Of a stretch of DNA of 64,000 bases, positions 2,596 to 45,339 are shown piece after piece. The translations under genes and the position numbers were made by a program. Position 1 is the first letter of the stretch. The number at the start of each line of letters is the position of its first letter. This stretch comes from Dehalococcoidia bacterium (lineage in GTDB: Bacteria; Chloroflexota; Dehalococcoidia; Lucifugimonadales; UBA1123). Location of the stretch: assembly GCA_009838465.1 (NCBI GenBank), contig VXRN01000027.1, forward strand, positions 1 to 64,000, given 5' to 3'. The notes beneath the pieces are model-generated. The model did not search any database and was not told the origin of the DNA. It saw only the letters and a list, made by a program, of their open reading frames with translations.

Positions 2596-2749
2596 CGTCT
2601 CTCCAGATTCTATTGACGGTGTGATGCTCACTCATGTAATGCGAATGATGACCATTTTAAGAGTGACTGAGCGCCAGCCTCTAGGTGTACGAGGTCCTTT
2701 AGCCGGCAGGGCCATTTCAAAGTCTTCCCCAGTTTCTTATAAGACTACA

Positions 2750-3018
2750 CATTCAGCGCTGCATACGCTGTAATACGAACATACAAACTAATTGAGGGGC
2801 GTGTACGACGATGATTCTGAACCTTGATATACATAAGCGCGAAGTTATGCTGACTCAATTTCTGAGGGACAGAAAATTTTTATGTAGCTAAACTCAGGTG
2901 AACTCAGGTGAATCTCTGGTGTTTTAATCACCTGTTGGTCACCAGTTGAGCCACCAGTTGCCACCTGCGGGTTTATAAACGAAAGTATATGACATGGTGA
3001 ATCCGGCCCATAGAATGG
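2750..3018. repeat. Inverted dispersed element with helically phased CAGGTG/CACCTG array (copy 1)
   Basis: This stretch matches the reverse complement of a segment near 44.25-44.53 kb over about 270 bp. Shared blocks include TAATACGAACATA, TGAACCT, ATACATAA, TCTCTGGTGTT, AATCACCTGTTG and TTTATAAACGAAAGTATATGAC. It holds CAGGTG at 2895 and 2905, CTGGTG at 2916, and CACC(T/A)G at 2929, 2940, 2952 and 2962, so neighbouring sites are 10-13 bp apart. The DUF1800 gene starts about 120 bp downstream. No credible gene lies between 2,596 and 3,136. Role unknown; a protein-binding array or a degraded mobile element is possible. Confidence 0.8.
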
Positions 3019-3136
3019 CCGACTTTGCAAAGGCACTGTTTAGCCAGACGGCCTTCTTGCCATCACCCTATGCGTTGGATATAGTACAGGCAACCCTTCG
3101 GGAGGCGCCGCGCGAGCGGCAGCCACAGGAGATACC

Positions 3137-4540
3137 ATGACCCAGTCGGACATCGCGCTCATCGCCCACCTGATGCGCCGCGCGGGCTTCGGGGCTACGC
3201 GCGAAGAGCTTGATGAATATGCATCGAGGGGCTACGAGGCCACGGTCGAGGACCTACTCGACCCGCAGGATACCGAGTGGCTCGGCGACGACATGGTGAG
3301 GCGCTTCGACCTCGAGGCGTCCGGCATGATAAACGCCCCCGGCTCCTCCCGCAACTGGGTCTATCGCATGATAACCACCAACGCGCCCCTGCTGGATAAG
3401 ATGGCCCTCTTCTGGCACGGCATCTTCGCCACCGGCGTCCCGAAAGTTATCAATGGCAGAGTCCTCTACGACCAGATCAACACCTTCCGAAGGCACGGCA
3501 TGGAATCCTTCGACTCCATTCTGCTCAGGCTTGCCAAAGACCCGGCGATGATCGTCTGGCTCGACAACCAGGAAAACCACGGCGATGCTATCAACGAGAA
3601 CTGGGCGCGCGAACTGCTCGAACTCTTCTCTATGGGCGTCGGCAACTACACCGAAGACGACATCAAGGAGTGCGCCCGCGCCTTTACCGGCTGGACCATC
3701 GGCAACACAGAGTACATGATGGTGCGCTCGATGCGGGACTCGGACTGGCCCTACGGCAGAATCGCATACCACTTCGACTACCGCCCCGAAGACCACGACA
3801 ACGGTGAGAAGACCTTCCTGGGGCACACGGGCAACTTCAACGGCGAAGACATCATCGCTATCATTTGCCGGCAGGAGTCCACCGCGCGTTTCATCTCCAG
3901 GCATCTCTACCACTTCTTCGTCGCCGACGAACCTCCCGTTCCGGCCTGGCCGTACACCCCGCCGAGAGACCCTGAGGCAATTGACATCCTCGTCCGCGCC
4001 TACTTCGACAGCAACTACGACATCAGGTCGGTCCTCAGGACGCTCTTCAACTCCGACTTCTTCAAGTCTGAGGATGCGCGATACAGGAAAGTCAAAGGCC
4101 CCGCAGAGTTCCTCGTCAGCGTGCTTCGCATGACCGGCGAGTTCGATATGCCCCGCAGGGACATGATCCCAAGATACAGGCAGACCGTGTGGATGGGACA
4201 GGAACTCAGCAATCCGCCCAGCGTGGAAGGCTGGCACGAGGGCGCTGAGTGGATAGACACGGGCACCCTCGTGGAGAGGATCAATTTCGCCTCCGAGCAG
4301 TTCGGCGATACCGGAAAGCCGGGCGTCAGCGCGATGATTGACAAGATCTGCCGCGAGGACACCGAGCGACTCTCATCCGAAGCCCTCGTAGATCGCTGCC
4401 TGGACGAGATGGGCGCGTTTACGGTCTCCGACAAGACGCGCGACACGCTTGTCCGCTTTGCCGGGGATGGCCGCAGCCGTGAGAGCGTCGCGCACCTCCT
4501 CAGACTCTCGGCCTCCACCCAAGAGTTTCAGTTGGCCTAG
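3137..4540 (+). CDS. DUF1800 domain-containing protein
   Basis: DUF1800 family protein of 467 residues, function unknown. Typical segments are visible: HLMRRAGFGAT near the N-terminus (where the family often begins its domain), LDKMALFWHGIFATG, NTFRRHGMESF, then WARELLELFSMG and CARAFTGW in the middle. The ATG follows AGGAGAT. In many bacteria DUF1800 genes are paired with DUF1501 sulfatase-like genes; here the partner is an NHL-propeller gene beginning four bases after the stop, so the two are probably co-transcribed. No signal peptide is obvious. An unusual repeated element with phased CAGGTG sites lies directly upstream. Confidence 0.88.
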   Translation: MTQSDIALIAHLMRRAGFGATREELDEYASRGYEATVEDLLDPQDTEWLGDDMVRRFDLEASGMINAPGSSRNWVYRMITTNAPLLDKMALFWHGIFATGVPKVINGRVLYDQINTFRRHGMESFDSILLRLAKDPAMIVWLDNQENHGDAINENWARELLELFSMGVGNYTEDDIKECARAFTGWTIGNTEYMMVRSMRDSDWPYGRIAYHFDYRPEDHDNGEKTFLGHTGNFNGEDIIAIICRQESTARFISRHLYHFFVADEPPVPAWPYTPPRDPEAIDILVRAYFDSNYDIRSVLRTLFNSDFFKSEDARYRKVKGPAEFLVSVLRMTGEFDMPRRDMIPRYRQTVWMGQELSNPPSVEGWHEGAEWIDTGTLVERINFASEQFGDTGKPGVSAMIDKICREDTERLSSEALVDRCLDEMGAFTVSDKTRDTLVRFAGDGRSRESVAHLLRLSASTQEFQLA

Positions 4541-41843: not shown

Positions 41844-44087
41844 CTACTTCTTGGCGGGAACCACAGTCTCGAACGAGTTGGGAAGCTCGTATGGCTTGAG
41901 GTTCCAACTCTCGACCGTGTCGGGGTTCAATCCGATCAGCACGGGAACTTCGACCACGCCGGAAGTCAGAGTCATGTCGTACGCCCAGTCCAGGATCCTC
42001 TCGCGAGATGCGAGGTTCTCTTCAGAGCCTTTGGCCTGTACGCGGGTCTCTTCTCTGTTGGACCAGTAGCGGTTGTCCTCGATGCTGGGGTTCCAGCCAC
42101 CGGCAGGAAGCGGCCACAGACCGCCGCCGGGCAGCGTGCCTCCACCCTCGCCCAGGCGACCGTGCTTGCTGGTCGGACCCCAGCGAGTCATCCACGGCAC
42201 GTGGAGCTGGCGGCCGAGCATGGTCGGGCGGCGCGAGGAGTACTGCGTGCTGTCTATCCAGGGCTCGAGTCCCAGATTCTCTTTCCACTGCCCAACGGTA
42301 GCTTCGCAGACCTCCAGCGAGGTGCCGTTGCCCTGCGAGCAGAAGAACTCGAACTCGAATCCGGGTTCCACACCCGACTCGGCCAGGTGCTGCTGCGCGA
42401 GGTCGGGATCAAAAGCGTAGCTCCAGCGCTCCTTGTACTCGGGGTGCGTCTGGTGCAGCGTCATTCCGGGGAAGGCTCCGCCATAGACGGCTCCGCCATA
42501 TCCTCCGGTAACGGAGGCGGCGATGAGTTCGCGGTCTATCGCGAAGGCGAGCGCCTTGCGGAAGGCCTTTGCCTTAAGCATGGAAGGTGTCTCGTAGGAG
42601 AACTTGTCGGTGTCGTTGTAGTCGAAGCCCACCGAGTCTTCAGTGAACCGAGAGTCCATACCGTCGAACTCGACAAGCTCGAAGTTGGCGACTTCACAGC
42701 CCACGCCGGGGGTATCCTGAATAGCGGGATCGGACCTGTCTATGCCAACACACTCGGTGCGGGGGTCGCCGATCCAGGGGTACTTGTCGGAGGGTATGAA
42801 GCCCTGGCGAAGCACCGGCCTGCCGGAAAGGTCCTCGTCACCCAGTGTGGAATTCGGGGGATATCTGAACGACCAGTCGTTGCCCGCGAAGTAGAAGAAG
42901 TTGCCATTGATGGCGTCAAGTCCCTGGTGGAACTGGAAGCCTTCGTCTTCAAGCCGGCCAACGTCTTGTATGGAGGCCATGGCTATGTCCGCCGCGCCGG
43001 TCTGGAGCATCGCGGATCGCTGCTGGGCCTCGTTTGCCTGGATGAATACCAGCCTGTCGAAGCCCGCGTTCGCGCGCCAGTGATCAGTCCTGGCCTCAGA
43101 CTCGATTCTCTCAGCAGGAAGCCATTCGTGGACTACGAACGGGCCGGAACCGTGCGGCACACCGAAGGTATCGCCCAGTTCGTCATAGAGCTGCTTGGAC
43201 TGCATCCAGATCGCGTCCTGGCAGATCGAGGAAGCGTCCTGCAGACCGTCCGACCGGAACGCTCTGTTCTCGGCTACCGCCACATACTTGCTCTCAGCGT
43301 GCCAGGGCTTGTAATACTCGTAAGCCTGAGACGAGTTGGAGTGAGCGGAGCTTGTGTCCTCGGAACCGGCGTCGTTGAACGACCATGCCACGTCTTCGGC
43401 GGTCAGTTCGCCAACCCTAGTGAGTTCTCCGTCAACCGAGCGGTAGAAGTCAATGCCTTCGCGGACGAACACTCTGATCGTTCCCTGACTTGCGATATCC
43501 GAAAGGTCCGCGTCGTCCAGAGACTCGCCGGTCTGTTCATTCTCGAGAGTCTTTCCACCCAGTTTGACCATGCCACCGGACTTGGAGGGAAGTTCCCACT
43601 CCCAGCCCGTGGCTACGAACGGGGCGTGGCATGCCTCTCCGGTAGCCCTAATCGGGTTGCCCTGATCGTCGAACGTAGGCTCCCAGCCGAGCAGAGGCTC
43701 CTGGAAGCCGAAGAAACCGTGGAACAGAACGTCGGGCCATGTGCCCTTGACGTTGCGGAACTGGGGCGTTCCCACGTTGTCGAACGCGACGGTTATGGTC
43801 ACGCTCTCCATGGTCTCTTCCATCATCGCCGCGGTCGGAGCGGGCGCGGGCTGGGCCGCCGCCGTGGGCGCGGCCATAGCAGGCGCGGGCTGAGACGGAG
43901 CCGCCGCGGTTGGGGCGGCAGGAGCGGGCGCCGCCGGGGCAGGAGCGGCAGGGGCCGGAGCTGATGGAGCCGCCGGTTCCGTATCTGCATCCGAACTACA
44001 TGCCAATGCGAACGCGGCTACCAGCGATACCATTACTGCCAGGCCGAATGCCAATCGCCATTTCGATTGAACACGCTTAAATGTCAT
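41844..44087 (-). CDS. Peptide-type ABC transporter substrate-binding lipoprotein
   Basis: About 747 residues, longer than the usual 500-600 of the SBP_bac_5 family. Start at the ATG after GGGAGG. A signal peptide leads to lipobox FALAC, followed by an Ala/Pro-rich stalk (APAAPAPAAPAPAAP) and then the binding domain. Typical are VFVREGIDFYRS, LTAEDVAWSFNDA and TPSMLKAKAFRKALAFAIDRELIA. Two insertions rich in Cys and acidic residues account for the extra length. It is probably the receptor for a peptide, opine or similar solute, passing it to the two downstream permeases. Confidence 0.92.
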   Translation of the reverse strand: MTFKRVQSKWRLAFGLAVMVSLVAAFALACSSDADTEPAAPSAPAPAAPAPAAPAPAAPTAAAPSQPAPAMAAPTAAAQPAPAPTAAMMEETMESVTITVAFDNVGTPQFRNVKGTWPDVLFHGFFGFQEPLLGWEPTFDDQGNPIRATGEACHAPFVATGWEWELPSKSGGMVKLGGKTLENEQTGESLDDADLSDIASQGTIRVFVREGIDFYRSVDGELTRVGELTAEDVAWSFNDAGSEDTSSAHSNSSQAYEYYKPWHAESKYVAVAENRAFRSDGLQDASSICQDAIWMQSKQLYDELGDTFGVPHGSGPFVVHEWLPAERIESEARTDHWRANAGFDRLVFIQANEAQQRSAMLQTGAADIAMASIQDVGRLEDEGFQFHQGLDAINGNFFYFAGNDWSFRYPPNSTLGDEDLSGRPVLRQGFIPSDKYPWIGDPRTECVGIDRSDPAIQDTPGVGCEVANFELVEFDGMDSRFTEDSVGFDYNDTDKFSYETPSMLKAKAFRKALAFAIDRELIAASVTGGYGGAVYGGAFPGMTLHQTHPEYKERWSYAFDPDLAQQHLAESGVEPGFEFEFFCSQGNGTSLEVCEATVGQWKENLGLEPWIDSTQYSSRRPTMLGRQLHVPWMTRWGPTSKHGRLGEGGGTLPGGGLWPLPAGGWNPSIEDNRYWSNREETRVQAKGSEENLASRERILDWAYDMTLTSGVVEVPVLIGLNPDTVESWNLKPYELPNSFETVVPAKK

Positions 44088-44250
44088 ATTTTCCTCCCCT
44101 TTCGTCTTTAGTGACGCGAGTGCCGCCACCCTGAACGAAGACATAGCTACTTAATGTTACTGATCAATAGTGCATATAATCACAATTTTTTGTTCCAAAA
44201 GTCAAATCCGGCACCTGCGAGGCAGAGCTTTTCGTAGTCGGGGCTGAACA

Positions 44251-44530
44251 CATTCCGTGGGACGGATTCGCCTGGTCATATACTTTCGTTTATAAAGCGA
44301 CAGGTGGCAGCAGGTGGCTTAACTGGTGAGCGACAGGTAGGCAACAGGTGATTAGAACACCAGAGATCCACCTGTTAATCACCTGCGTTAGCTTTGGGAG
44401 AGATTTTTCGCTACTCCGATTTTGGGCCAGCATAACCGGATATTTATGTATGTCGAGGTTCAGGATCATGGTTGGACACGCTTCGCTATTAGTTGATATG
44501 TTCGTATTATAGTGTATTCAGTGCACGAAT
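44251..44530. repeat. Inverted dispersed element with helically phased CAGGTG/CACCTG array (copy 2)
   Basis: The reverse complement of the element at 2.75-3.02 kb. CAGGTG-type hexamers start at 44301, 44311, 44323 (CTGGTG), 44334 (CAGGTA), 44345; CACCAG at 44358; CACCTG at 44369 and 44380. Neighbouring starts are 10, 12, 11, 11, 13, 11 and 11 bp apart, and the order mirrors copy 1. It lies in the 571-bp divergent space between the binding-protein gene (its start about 165 bp away, in the same relation as copy 1 to DUF1800) and the response regulator. Confidence 0.82.
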
Positions 44531-44566
44531 ATGCAGTGCTATGGGAAACTCAGGAAGGCTCTGAAA

Positions 44567-44586
44567 AGTCCTCGGTGGCGAGGACT
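44567..44586. other. Hairpin upstream of the response regulator
   Basis: AGTCCTCG-GTGG-CGAGGACT forms a perfect 8-bp stem about 75 bp before the regulator start codon. It could be an operator half-site pair or a leader structure. Not seen elsewhere in the window. Confidence 0.5.
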
Positions 44587-44658: not shown

Positions 44659-45339
44659 ATGTCTTTGGAGAGCGCGCCGGCGAGAGGGCCGCGCGAAGAA
44701 CATGAGCTTGTCGCGCTGCTGCGCAGGCAGGAGGTCAACTCGGTGTTTCTGTCCTCGGACAGCGACCCCGCGATGGTGGGCAACAACCTGGAATCCGCCC
44801 CCGCACTTGCCCTGATAGATACCGCGTATATGACGTCCTTCGAGGTGGAAAAGTACGCGCAGGCTTGTACGGATGCCGGCGTTCCGGCTATCGCGCTGGT
44901 GCCGCGCACCCGCGTGCCGGGACTCGAACCCTCGCTTCCGCTGGCCGATTTCATTACCAGCCCGCCCGACCCGGACGAACTAGTAGTCAGGGCTCGCCGG
45001 GTTCTCGAATCGGGAAAGCAGCATAAAGATGACGACAGCCACATCATCCGCGCGGGCGACATTCAGATAGACACCTCCAGCTACGACGTGACGATACGCG
45101 GAAGTCGCATAGGACTCACGTTCAAGGAGTACGAACTCCTGAAGCTGCTGGCGGAGAACCCGGGCAGGGTGTTTTCCAGGTACGCGCTGCTCAACCAGAT
45201 CTGGGGGTACGAATACTTCGGCGGTACCAGAACCGTTGACGTCCATATCCGTCGCCTCAGAAGCAAGATACAGGATGCCGAGCATAACTTCATCGAAACC
45301 ATCTGGAACGTCGGATACAGGTTCAGGGAAGAGAGATAA
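44659..45339 (+). CDS. OmpR/PhoB-type response regulator with degenerate receiver
   Basis: A 226-residue DNA-binding regulator. The C-terminal winged helix is classical: LTFKEYELLKLLAENPGRVFSRYALLNQIWGYEYFGGTRTVDVHIRRLRSKI. The N-terminal domain keeps a receiver-like order, with LALID (Asp54) at the phospho-acceptor position. The acidic pair normally before beta-1 is absent, and the conserved Lys of the KP loop is replaced in FITSPPD. Phosphorylation is therefore doubtful and no histidine kinase gene is adjacent. Start at an ATG after AAGGG. It is divergent from the transporter operon and could regulate it. Confidence 0.88.
   Translation: MSLESAPARGPREEHELVALLRRQEVNSVFLSSDSDPAMVGNNLESAPALALIDTAYMTSFEVEKYAQACTDAGVPAIALVPRTRVPGLEPSLPLADFITSPPDPDELVVRARRVLESGKQHKDDDSHIIRAGDIQIDTSSYDVTIRGSRIGLTFKEYELLKLLAENPGRVFSRYALLNQIWGYEYFGGTRTVDVHIRRLRSKIQDAEHNFIETIWNVGYRFREER

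Follow-up and report, generated by a model that had tools for sequence, protein, structure and literature searches.

The window analyzed here, a 64,000-nucleotide stretch of DNA from an uncultured Dehalococcoidia bacterium, carries two copies of a noncoding element, each located upstream of a protein-coding gene. The first copy is a mobile element of ~332 bp that extends from 2707 to 3038 and precedes a gene for a DUF1800 protein (3137–4540, plus strand; Pfam PF08811, E 5e-103). Its terminal inverted repeats (CAGGGCCTTTKCAAAGTY) occupy 2707–2724 on the plus strand (CAGGGCCATTTCAAAGTC, with one mismatch to CAGGGCCTTTTCAAAGTC) and 3021–3038 on the minus strand (reverse complement CAGTGCCTTTGCAAAGTC). 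They are bordered by a 9-bp target-site duplication, TTTAGCCGG at 2698–2706 and TTTAGCCAG at 3039–3047, whose halves are identical at eight of nine positions. The first-pass annotation had placed the element at 2750–3018 (~270 bp), and this span has been corrected to include both ends and the duplication.

Between its ends, the element has an elaborate internal organization. The −10 box of a predicted promoter, P1, is found at 2769–2774 on the plus strand (GC-TGTAAT here, where aligned copies have the consensus GCTAnAAT). A left palindromic box, O_L (ATACATAA-N8-TTATG), occupies 2829–2849 and is present in 77 of 78 class-1 copies (see below for classes). It is followed on the plus strand by an AGCTAA box (2886–2891), invariant in 30 aligned copies, which separates O_L from the array proper. 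The array comprises three forward units (CAGGTG, CAGGTG, and CTGGTG; 2895–2921, plus strand, starting at 2895, 2905, and 2916) and four reverse units (CACCTG, CACCAG, CACCAG, and CACCTG; 2929–2967, minus strand, starting at 2929, 2940, 2952, and 2962), so that the start-to-start steps among the seven units are 10, 11, 13, 11, 12, and 10. A right box, O_R (TATAAA-N6-TATATGA; 75 of 78 class-1 copies), lies at 2974–2992 and ends ~144 bp upstream of the DUF1800 ATG.

The second copy, also of class 1, lies on the minus strand at 44225–44576 (ends approximate, the terminal repeats being degenerate) and has its parts in the same order. These are the predicted P1 −10 box (TATAAT; 44506–44511, minus strand), O_L (ATACATAA-N8-TTATG; 44431–44451), an array of three forward and five reverse units (44301–44385, minus strand), and O_R (TATAAA-N6-TATATGA; 44276–44294), which ends ~188 bp upstream of the likely ATG of a gene for a family-5 solute-binding lipoprotein (SBP_bac_5; 41844–44087, minus strand; Pfam PF00496, E 2e-32). 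Both copies had been recognized in the first-pass annotation by long common blocks, over which they do align, and its description of seven or eight phased hexamers in one orientation and then the other matches the 3 + 4 and 3 + 5 units seen here. It had also correctly placed the copies upstream of the two genes; the distances that it gave, ~120 and ~165 bp, are replaced by those measured from the end of O_R. The window contains exactly two instances of a 22-mer, TTTATAAACGAAAGTATATGAC, versus 0.00 expected from shuffled sequences. CASSTG hexamers show no excess across the window (65 found versus 69 expected), and the unusual feature of the array is its phasing and arrangement, not the abundance of its hexamer in the window. 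Encoded divergently beside copy 2 is a winged-helix regulator of the OmpR/PhoB type (44659–45339, by Pfam), and this protein is a natural first candidate for binding to the array.

The two copies in the window, which the first-pass annotation took as the full count, greatly underrepresent the family. With the window copy as a DNA query, 44 matches were obtained in the window's own genome (G000), ~35 of them clear. A sequence-only model built from 30 copies recovered 43 strong class-1 matches in G000 and at least ~48 in a species of the same genus (G002), and no matches in 58 other relatives. Both G000 and G002 derive from uncultured Dehalococcoidia and are apparently metagenome assemblies, with 6.4% contamination in G000. 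Weaker matches to the model proved to have the same architecture with other units, and these constitute further classes, which we have named 1 to 5 by unit sequence for this analysis. At least four unit specificities occur on the one frame (CWGGTGA, the CTGGG of class 2, the CAGGG of class 5 in G002, and the GCWGGTA of class 4), and class 3 has CACCTGAA. Approximately 29 copies of class 2 are present in G000, a number that, like all per-class counts given here, is a lower bound. In total the element has ~100 copies, each of ~330 bp and without an open reading frame. A eukaryote-like E-box reading of CAGGTG was dropped because the CTGGG and CAGGG units found in other classes do not fit that motif.

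The distribution of these elements is narrow. A pattern that specifies only O_L, AGCT, and O_R, and leaves the unit sequence open, has at least 60 exact copies in G000 and 51 in G002, with no matches to the reversed control in either genome. It is absent from G001, G003, and other members of the family, and among 245 other genomes of the order it gave single isolated matches in three. Among 84,980 GTDB species, a set that may not contain the window's own genome, the class-1 pattern was confined to CATOSI01, which is an uncultured Dehalococcoidia bacterium. Viral contigs were without the class-1 pattern, and a phage origin was rejected on these grounds. A weak class-2 match in G006 (L136) is located within coding sequence and was judged to be due to chance. 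An expansion of OmpR-type regulators was considered for the cassette-bearing species and set aside, as the difference is small (six each in G000 and G002 versus four and two in G001 and G003).

The geometry of the cassette is strict. Parts are arranged in the order −10 box (GCTAnAAT), O_L (ATAA-N8-TTAT), AGCT, forward CWGG units, reverse units, O_R (consensus TATAAA-N6-TATATG), and gene, with three forward units and then four or five reverse units per array. Among 70 parsed class-1 copies, forward units are stepped by 10 or 11 bp and reverse units by 10 to 12 bp, and the distance between the cores of the last forward and first reverse units is 14 bp in 69. Most whole class-1 cores are 155, 166, or 177 bp long. 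The distance from O_L to O_R is 130–132, 141–144, 153–154, or 165 bp in class 1 and 152–154 bp in class 2. This quantization in 11-bp steps therefore keeps both boxes on one face of the DNA. Approximately 98% of units have A or T at position 2, which is what recognition that treats A·T and T·A alike would give. In class-5 copies, O_L is a near-perfect palindrome. Of the aligned copies, 98% have a GC dinucleotide ahead of a hexamer resembling TANAAT, a value slightly favored by a scan that rewarded GC, and no clear −35 box for P1 was found in the aligned copies.

The elements also have the features of a MITE (miniature inverted-repeat transposable element), namely terminal inverted repeats, target-site duplication, short length, noncoding sequence, and many copies. 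Because many copies end in inverted repeats flanked by 9-bp target duplications, the array can be said to ride in a MITE. The terminal repeat has 45 matches in G000 and 55 in G002, where its reversed control has 0 and 5, and no more than two in either G001 or G003. Two complete cassettes of class 5 (L197 and L198) lie between exact 9-bp duplications, and thus the whole unit, from one end to the other, has transposed. In many class-1 copies, including that of recA, the module is present without recognizable ends. The alternative offered in the first-pass annotation, that the sequence might be what remains at one end of an old mobile element, was correct with regard to mobility. The element includes no transposase gene. 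A search among repeat pairs yielded no autonomous transposon bearing these ends. An ISAs1 transposase was considered as a partner and rejected because the ends adjoining the ISAs1-type transposases that were checked do not match.

Several related structures share the same ends. Four elements of ~123–148 bp in G000 (L167, L168, L169, and L170, on C23, C67, C69, and C22) have these terminal repeats and no array or promoter, and two of them (L167 and L170) are flanked by exact 9-bp target duplications. A class-4 array lacking a clear left box is found on the reverse strand at L168, near the short array-free element. In G002, a 1.4-kb stretch with these ends (L135/L194; C2:1028007–1029404) carries a class-2 array and, after it, a gene resembling those for HNH endonucleases (Pfam HNH_3, under the cut-off), with no target duplication seen.

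The cassettes are oriented relative to genes. By codon-usage gene calls, 109 of 118 copies have a downstream gene in the same direction, at a median distance of ~90–100 bp from cassette to start codon. Where the flanking genes are co-directional, 35 elements point toward the gene downstream and two do not, for which the one-sided binomial probability would be near 5e-9 under the assumption that copies are independent. Another 50 copies reside in divergent intergenic regions and are uninformative because either orientation would do, and few are in convergent regions. Seven of the 118 copies (L026, L028, L086, L091, L122, L138, and L182) are directed at the 3′ end of a convergent gene, and these might give a stand-alone transcript. 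Convergent-gene sites common to both species are L026/L122 and L086/L138. The genes downstream are varied and, as judged by reading translations (with Pfam applied to window genes only), include recA, nusA, tyrS, ftsY, aroC, argC, pyrB, and genes for trigger factor, DUF1800 and DUF1501 proteins, and enolase-superfamily enzymes.

Comparison of orthologous sites in the two species reveals both retention and turnover. A cassette precedes recA in both species, and its core is 91% identical versus 64% for the sequence just upstream. A GAAC-ATGTATTTAC element, which we read as a LexA-type native promoter element, lies between the cassette and recA and is shared by G001 and G004–G007, which have no cassette. 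Since these relatives have the native promoter alone, the cassette was added above it, and P1 would not be needed at this gene because the native promoter is interposed. At other orthologous sites the class differs between G000 and G002: 2 and 1 for the SDR and sulfatase genes, 1 and 5 for nusA, pcm, and L023/L195, 3 and 5 for a nucleoside hydrolase gene, 4 and 1 for L078/L132, and CTGGG and CAGGG for a DUF1501 gene. For the SDR, sulfatase, nucleoside hydrolase, and L023/L195 sites, both flanks align and the cassette, including its promoter, differs. These differences could have arisen by independent insertion, local replacement, or recombination.

The cassette lies downstream from a predicted promoter and ahead of genes, and its forward and reverse units are complementary. 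These features could be read as those of a structured 5′ leader RNA, in which the two sets of units would pair as a hairpin and so control termination or translation. One class-1 cassette (L027) has a SAM riboswitch directly downstream (L027:1702–1822), and therefore the two would share one leader. We consider this explanation quite improbable, and it was rejected as the main reading on the basis of covariation, variant independence, and folding. RNAalifold predicted four pairs from 30 copies, without any covariation, and the variants of forward and reverse units are independent (p 0.11 and 0.51). A variant that breaks pairing with a C·A mismatch (CAGGCG; 29 of 159 forward units) is more common than the G·U-compatible variant of the reverse units (11 of 225). 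Furthermore, the spacers do not favor folding, as real arrays have no folding advantage over controls with shuffled spacers (mean z +0.42, sense strand), and Rfam covariance models have no match at the element. The 11-bp quantization fits duplex DNA. Because forward and reverse units do not covary, the array probably consists of sites in duplex DNA. Indeed, a helically phased array of protein-binding sites had been one of two readings offered in the first-pass annotation, and it gains from the lack of covariation, the 11-bp steps between O_L and O_R, and a spacing (including the nearly invariant center) far stricter than the sequence between units. The interpretation in that annotation is partly borne out: it had treated the binding array and the mobile element as alternatives, and the evidence favors both together.

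We consider it probable that these elements are small mobile promoter-operator cassettes forming a family specific to this lineage, that is, MITEs with a predicted cooperative operator array. The copy number, ends and duplications, geometry, predicted promoter box, orientation bias, and retention or turnover at orthologous genes speak for this view. Points against it are the seven copies directed at a 3′ end, the native promoter between cassette and recA, the small difference in the number of OmpR-type regulators, and the failure to find an autonomous transposon among repeat pairs. Two other explanations must be weighed against this one. The terminal repeats, target duplications, gain and loss of units, and recent bursts of a single class in each species (class 2 in G000 and class 5 in G002) would all be produced by a passive MITE with an internal minisatellite, whose unit number changes by slippage, whose spread is selfish, and whose location merely reflects tolerated insertion. 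This is unlikely given the orientation bias of 35 versus 2 where informative, the fact that old copies without terminal repeats have kept the −10 box and a constant center spacing, the conservation of the recA core relative to its upstream sequence, and the presence of different classes in the same orthologous slots. The array might instead serve the transposon by providing sites for an accessory protein of the transposase or for an element-encoded repressor, in which case the classes would resemble immunity groups and effects on the host would be secondary. That the array travels with the terminal repeats, that each species has its own recent class, and that the 1.4-kb element in G002 combines these ends with a class-2 array and an HNH gene are in keeping with this idea. 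We also regard it as having little chance of being correct, since the module, promoter included, persists in many class-1 copies without terminal repeats, is positioned in the middle of the element rather than at its ends, and since no autonomous element was found among repeat pairs.

For the promoter-operator cassette that we favor, the mobility, geometry, orientation, and retention are shown by the comparisons above, and we infer promoter activity at P1, protein binding, and the direction of the effect on the gene. The sigma-70-type promoter P1 would transcribe the downstream gene, and a DNA-binding protein would cooperatively occupy the 11-bp-spaced CWGG units as two facing runs. The same protein or another may bind the two palindromic boxes kept on one DNA face, and the resulting nucleoprotein complex, just downstream from P1, would modulate transcription into the gene. 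Newly transposed copies may bring other unit specificities and replace older copies, and thus genes would keep a cassette while its specificity changes.

A broader and more tentative proposal, of which we are rather doubtful, is that the two species run a distributed regulatory layer of interchangeable mobile operator cassettes at ~100 mostly unrelated genes, rewired by transposition. If true, cassettes are swapped for others of different specificity at the same gene, such that the network is rewired while each gene keeps a cassette. The two species represent a natural experiment, with the same gene under a different class in each, and the pair could show whether mobile elements supply operators and how the site repertoire of a regulator turns over.

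MITEs that carry promoters are already known. Our literature search yielded no report of MITEs bearing a helically phased two-sided array of seven to eight sites in which several specificities share a fixed frame, and nothing relevant on repeats in SAR202 or sponge Dehalococcoidia. The PHO boxes of Streptomyces, which are bound by PhoP, consist of several 11-nt units with cooperative binding and unequal affinity (PMC7866108). The units described here are likewise ~11 bp apart. However, PHO boxes are direct repeats only, at fixed promoters of phosphate genes, and are not mobile, whereas the units here run in both orientations, the genes downstream are not a phosphate regulon, and the element does not belong to the PHO-box family. 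Correia elements (CREE) of Neisseria are small MITEs with >120 copies, mostly just upstream of genes, that carry promoters of a sigma-70-like type, some of them also with an IHF site that affects the neighboring operon (PMC10969869). The likeness is that of a promoter-bearing MITE upstream of genes, with the promoter being a predicted one here. No 11-bp-phased inverted array, phased palindrome pair, or interchangeable unit classes are described for Correia elements, and the present element is not a member of that family, as judged from its terminal sequence CAGGGCCTTTKCAAAGTY and its host, an uncultured member of the Dehalococcoidia related to CATOSI01, rather than by alignment to the Correia sequence itself. 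Finally, the BrickBuilt MITE of Porphyromonas gingivalis is intergenic, contains a tandem repeat array with promoter activity, and has 19 copies in strain ATCC 33277 (PMC4596501). It resembles the present element as an intergenic MITE holding a repeat array, but its array is made of 23-bp direct repeats without spacers and its promoters are bidirectional, whereas the cassettes described here carry 11-bp-spaced hexamers in facing runs and are placed directionally relative to genes.
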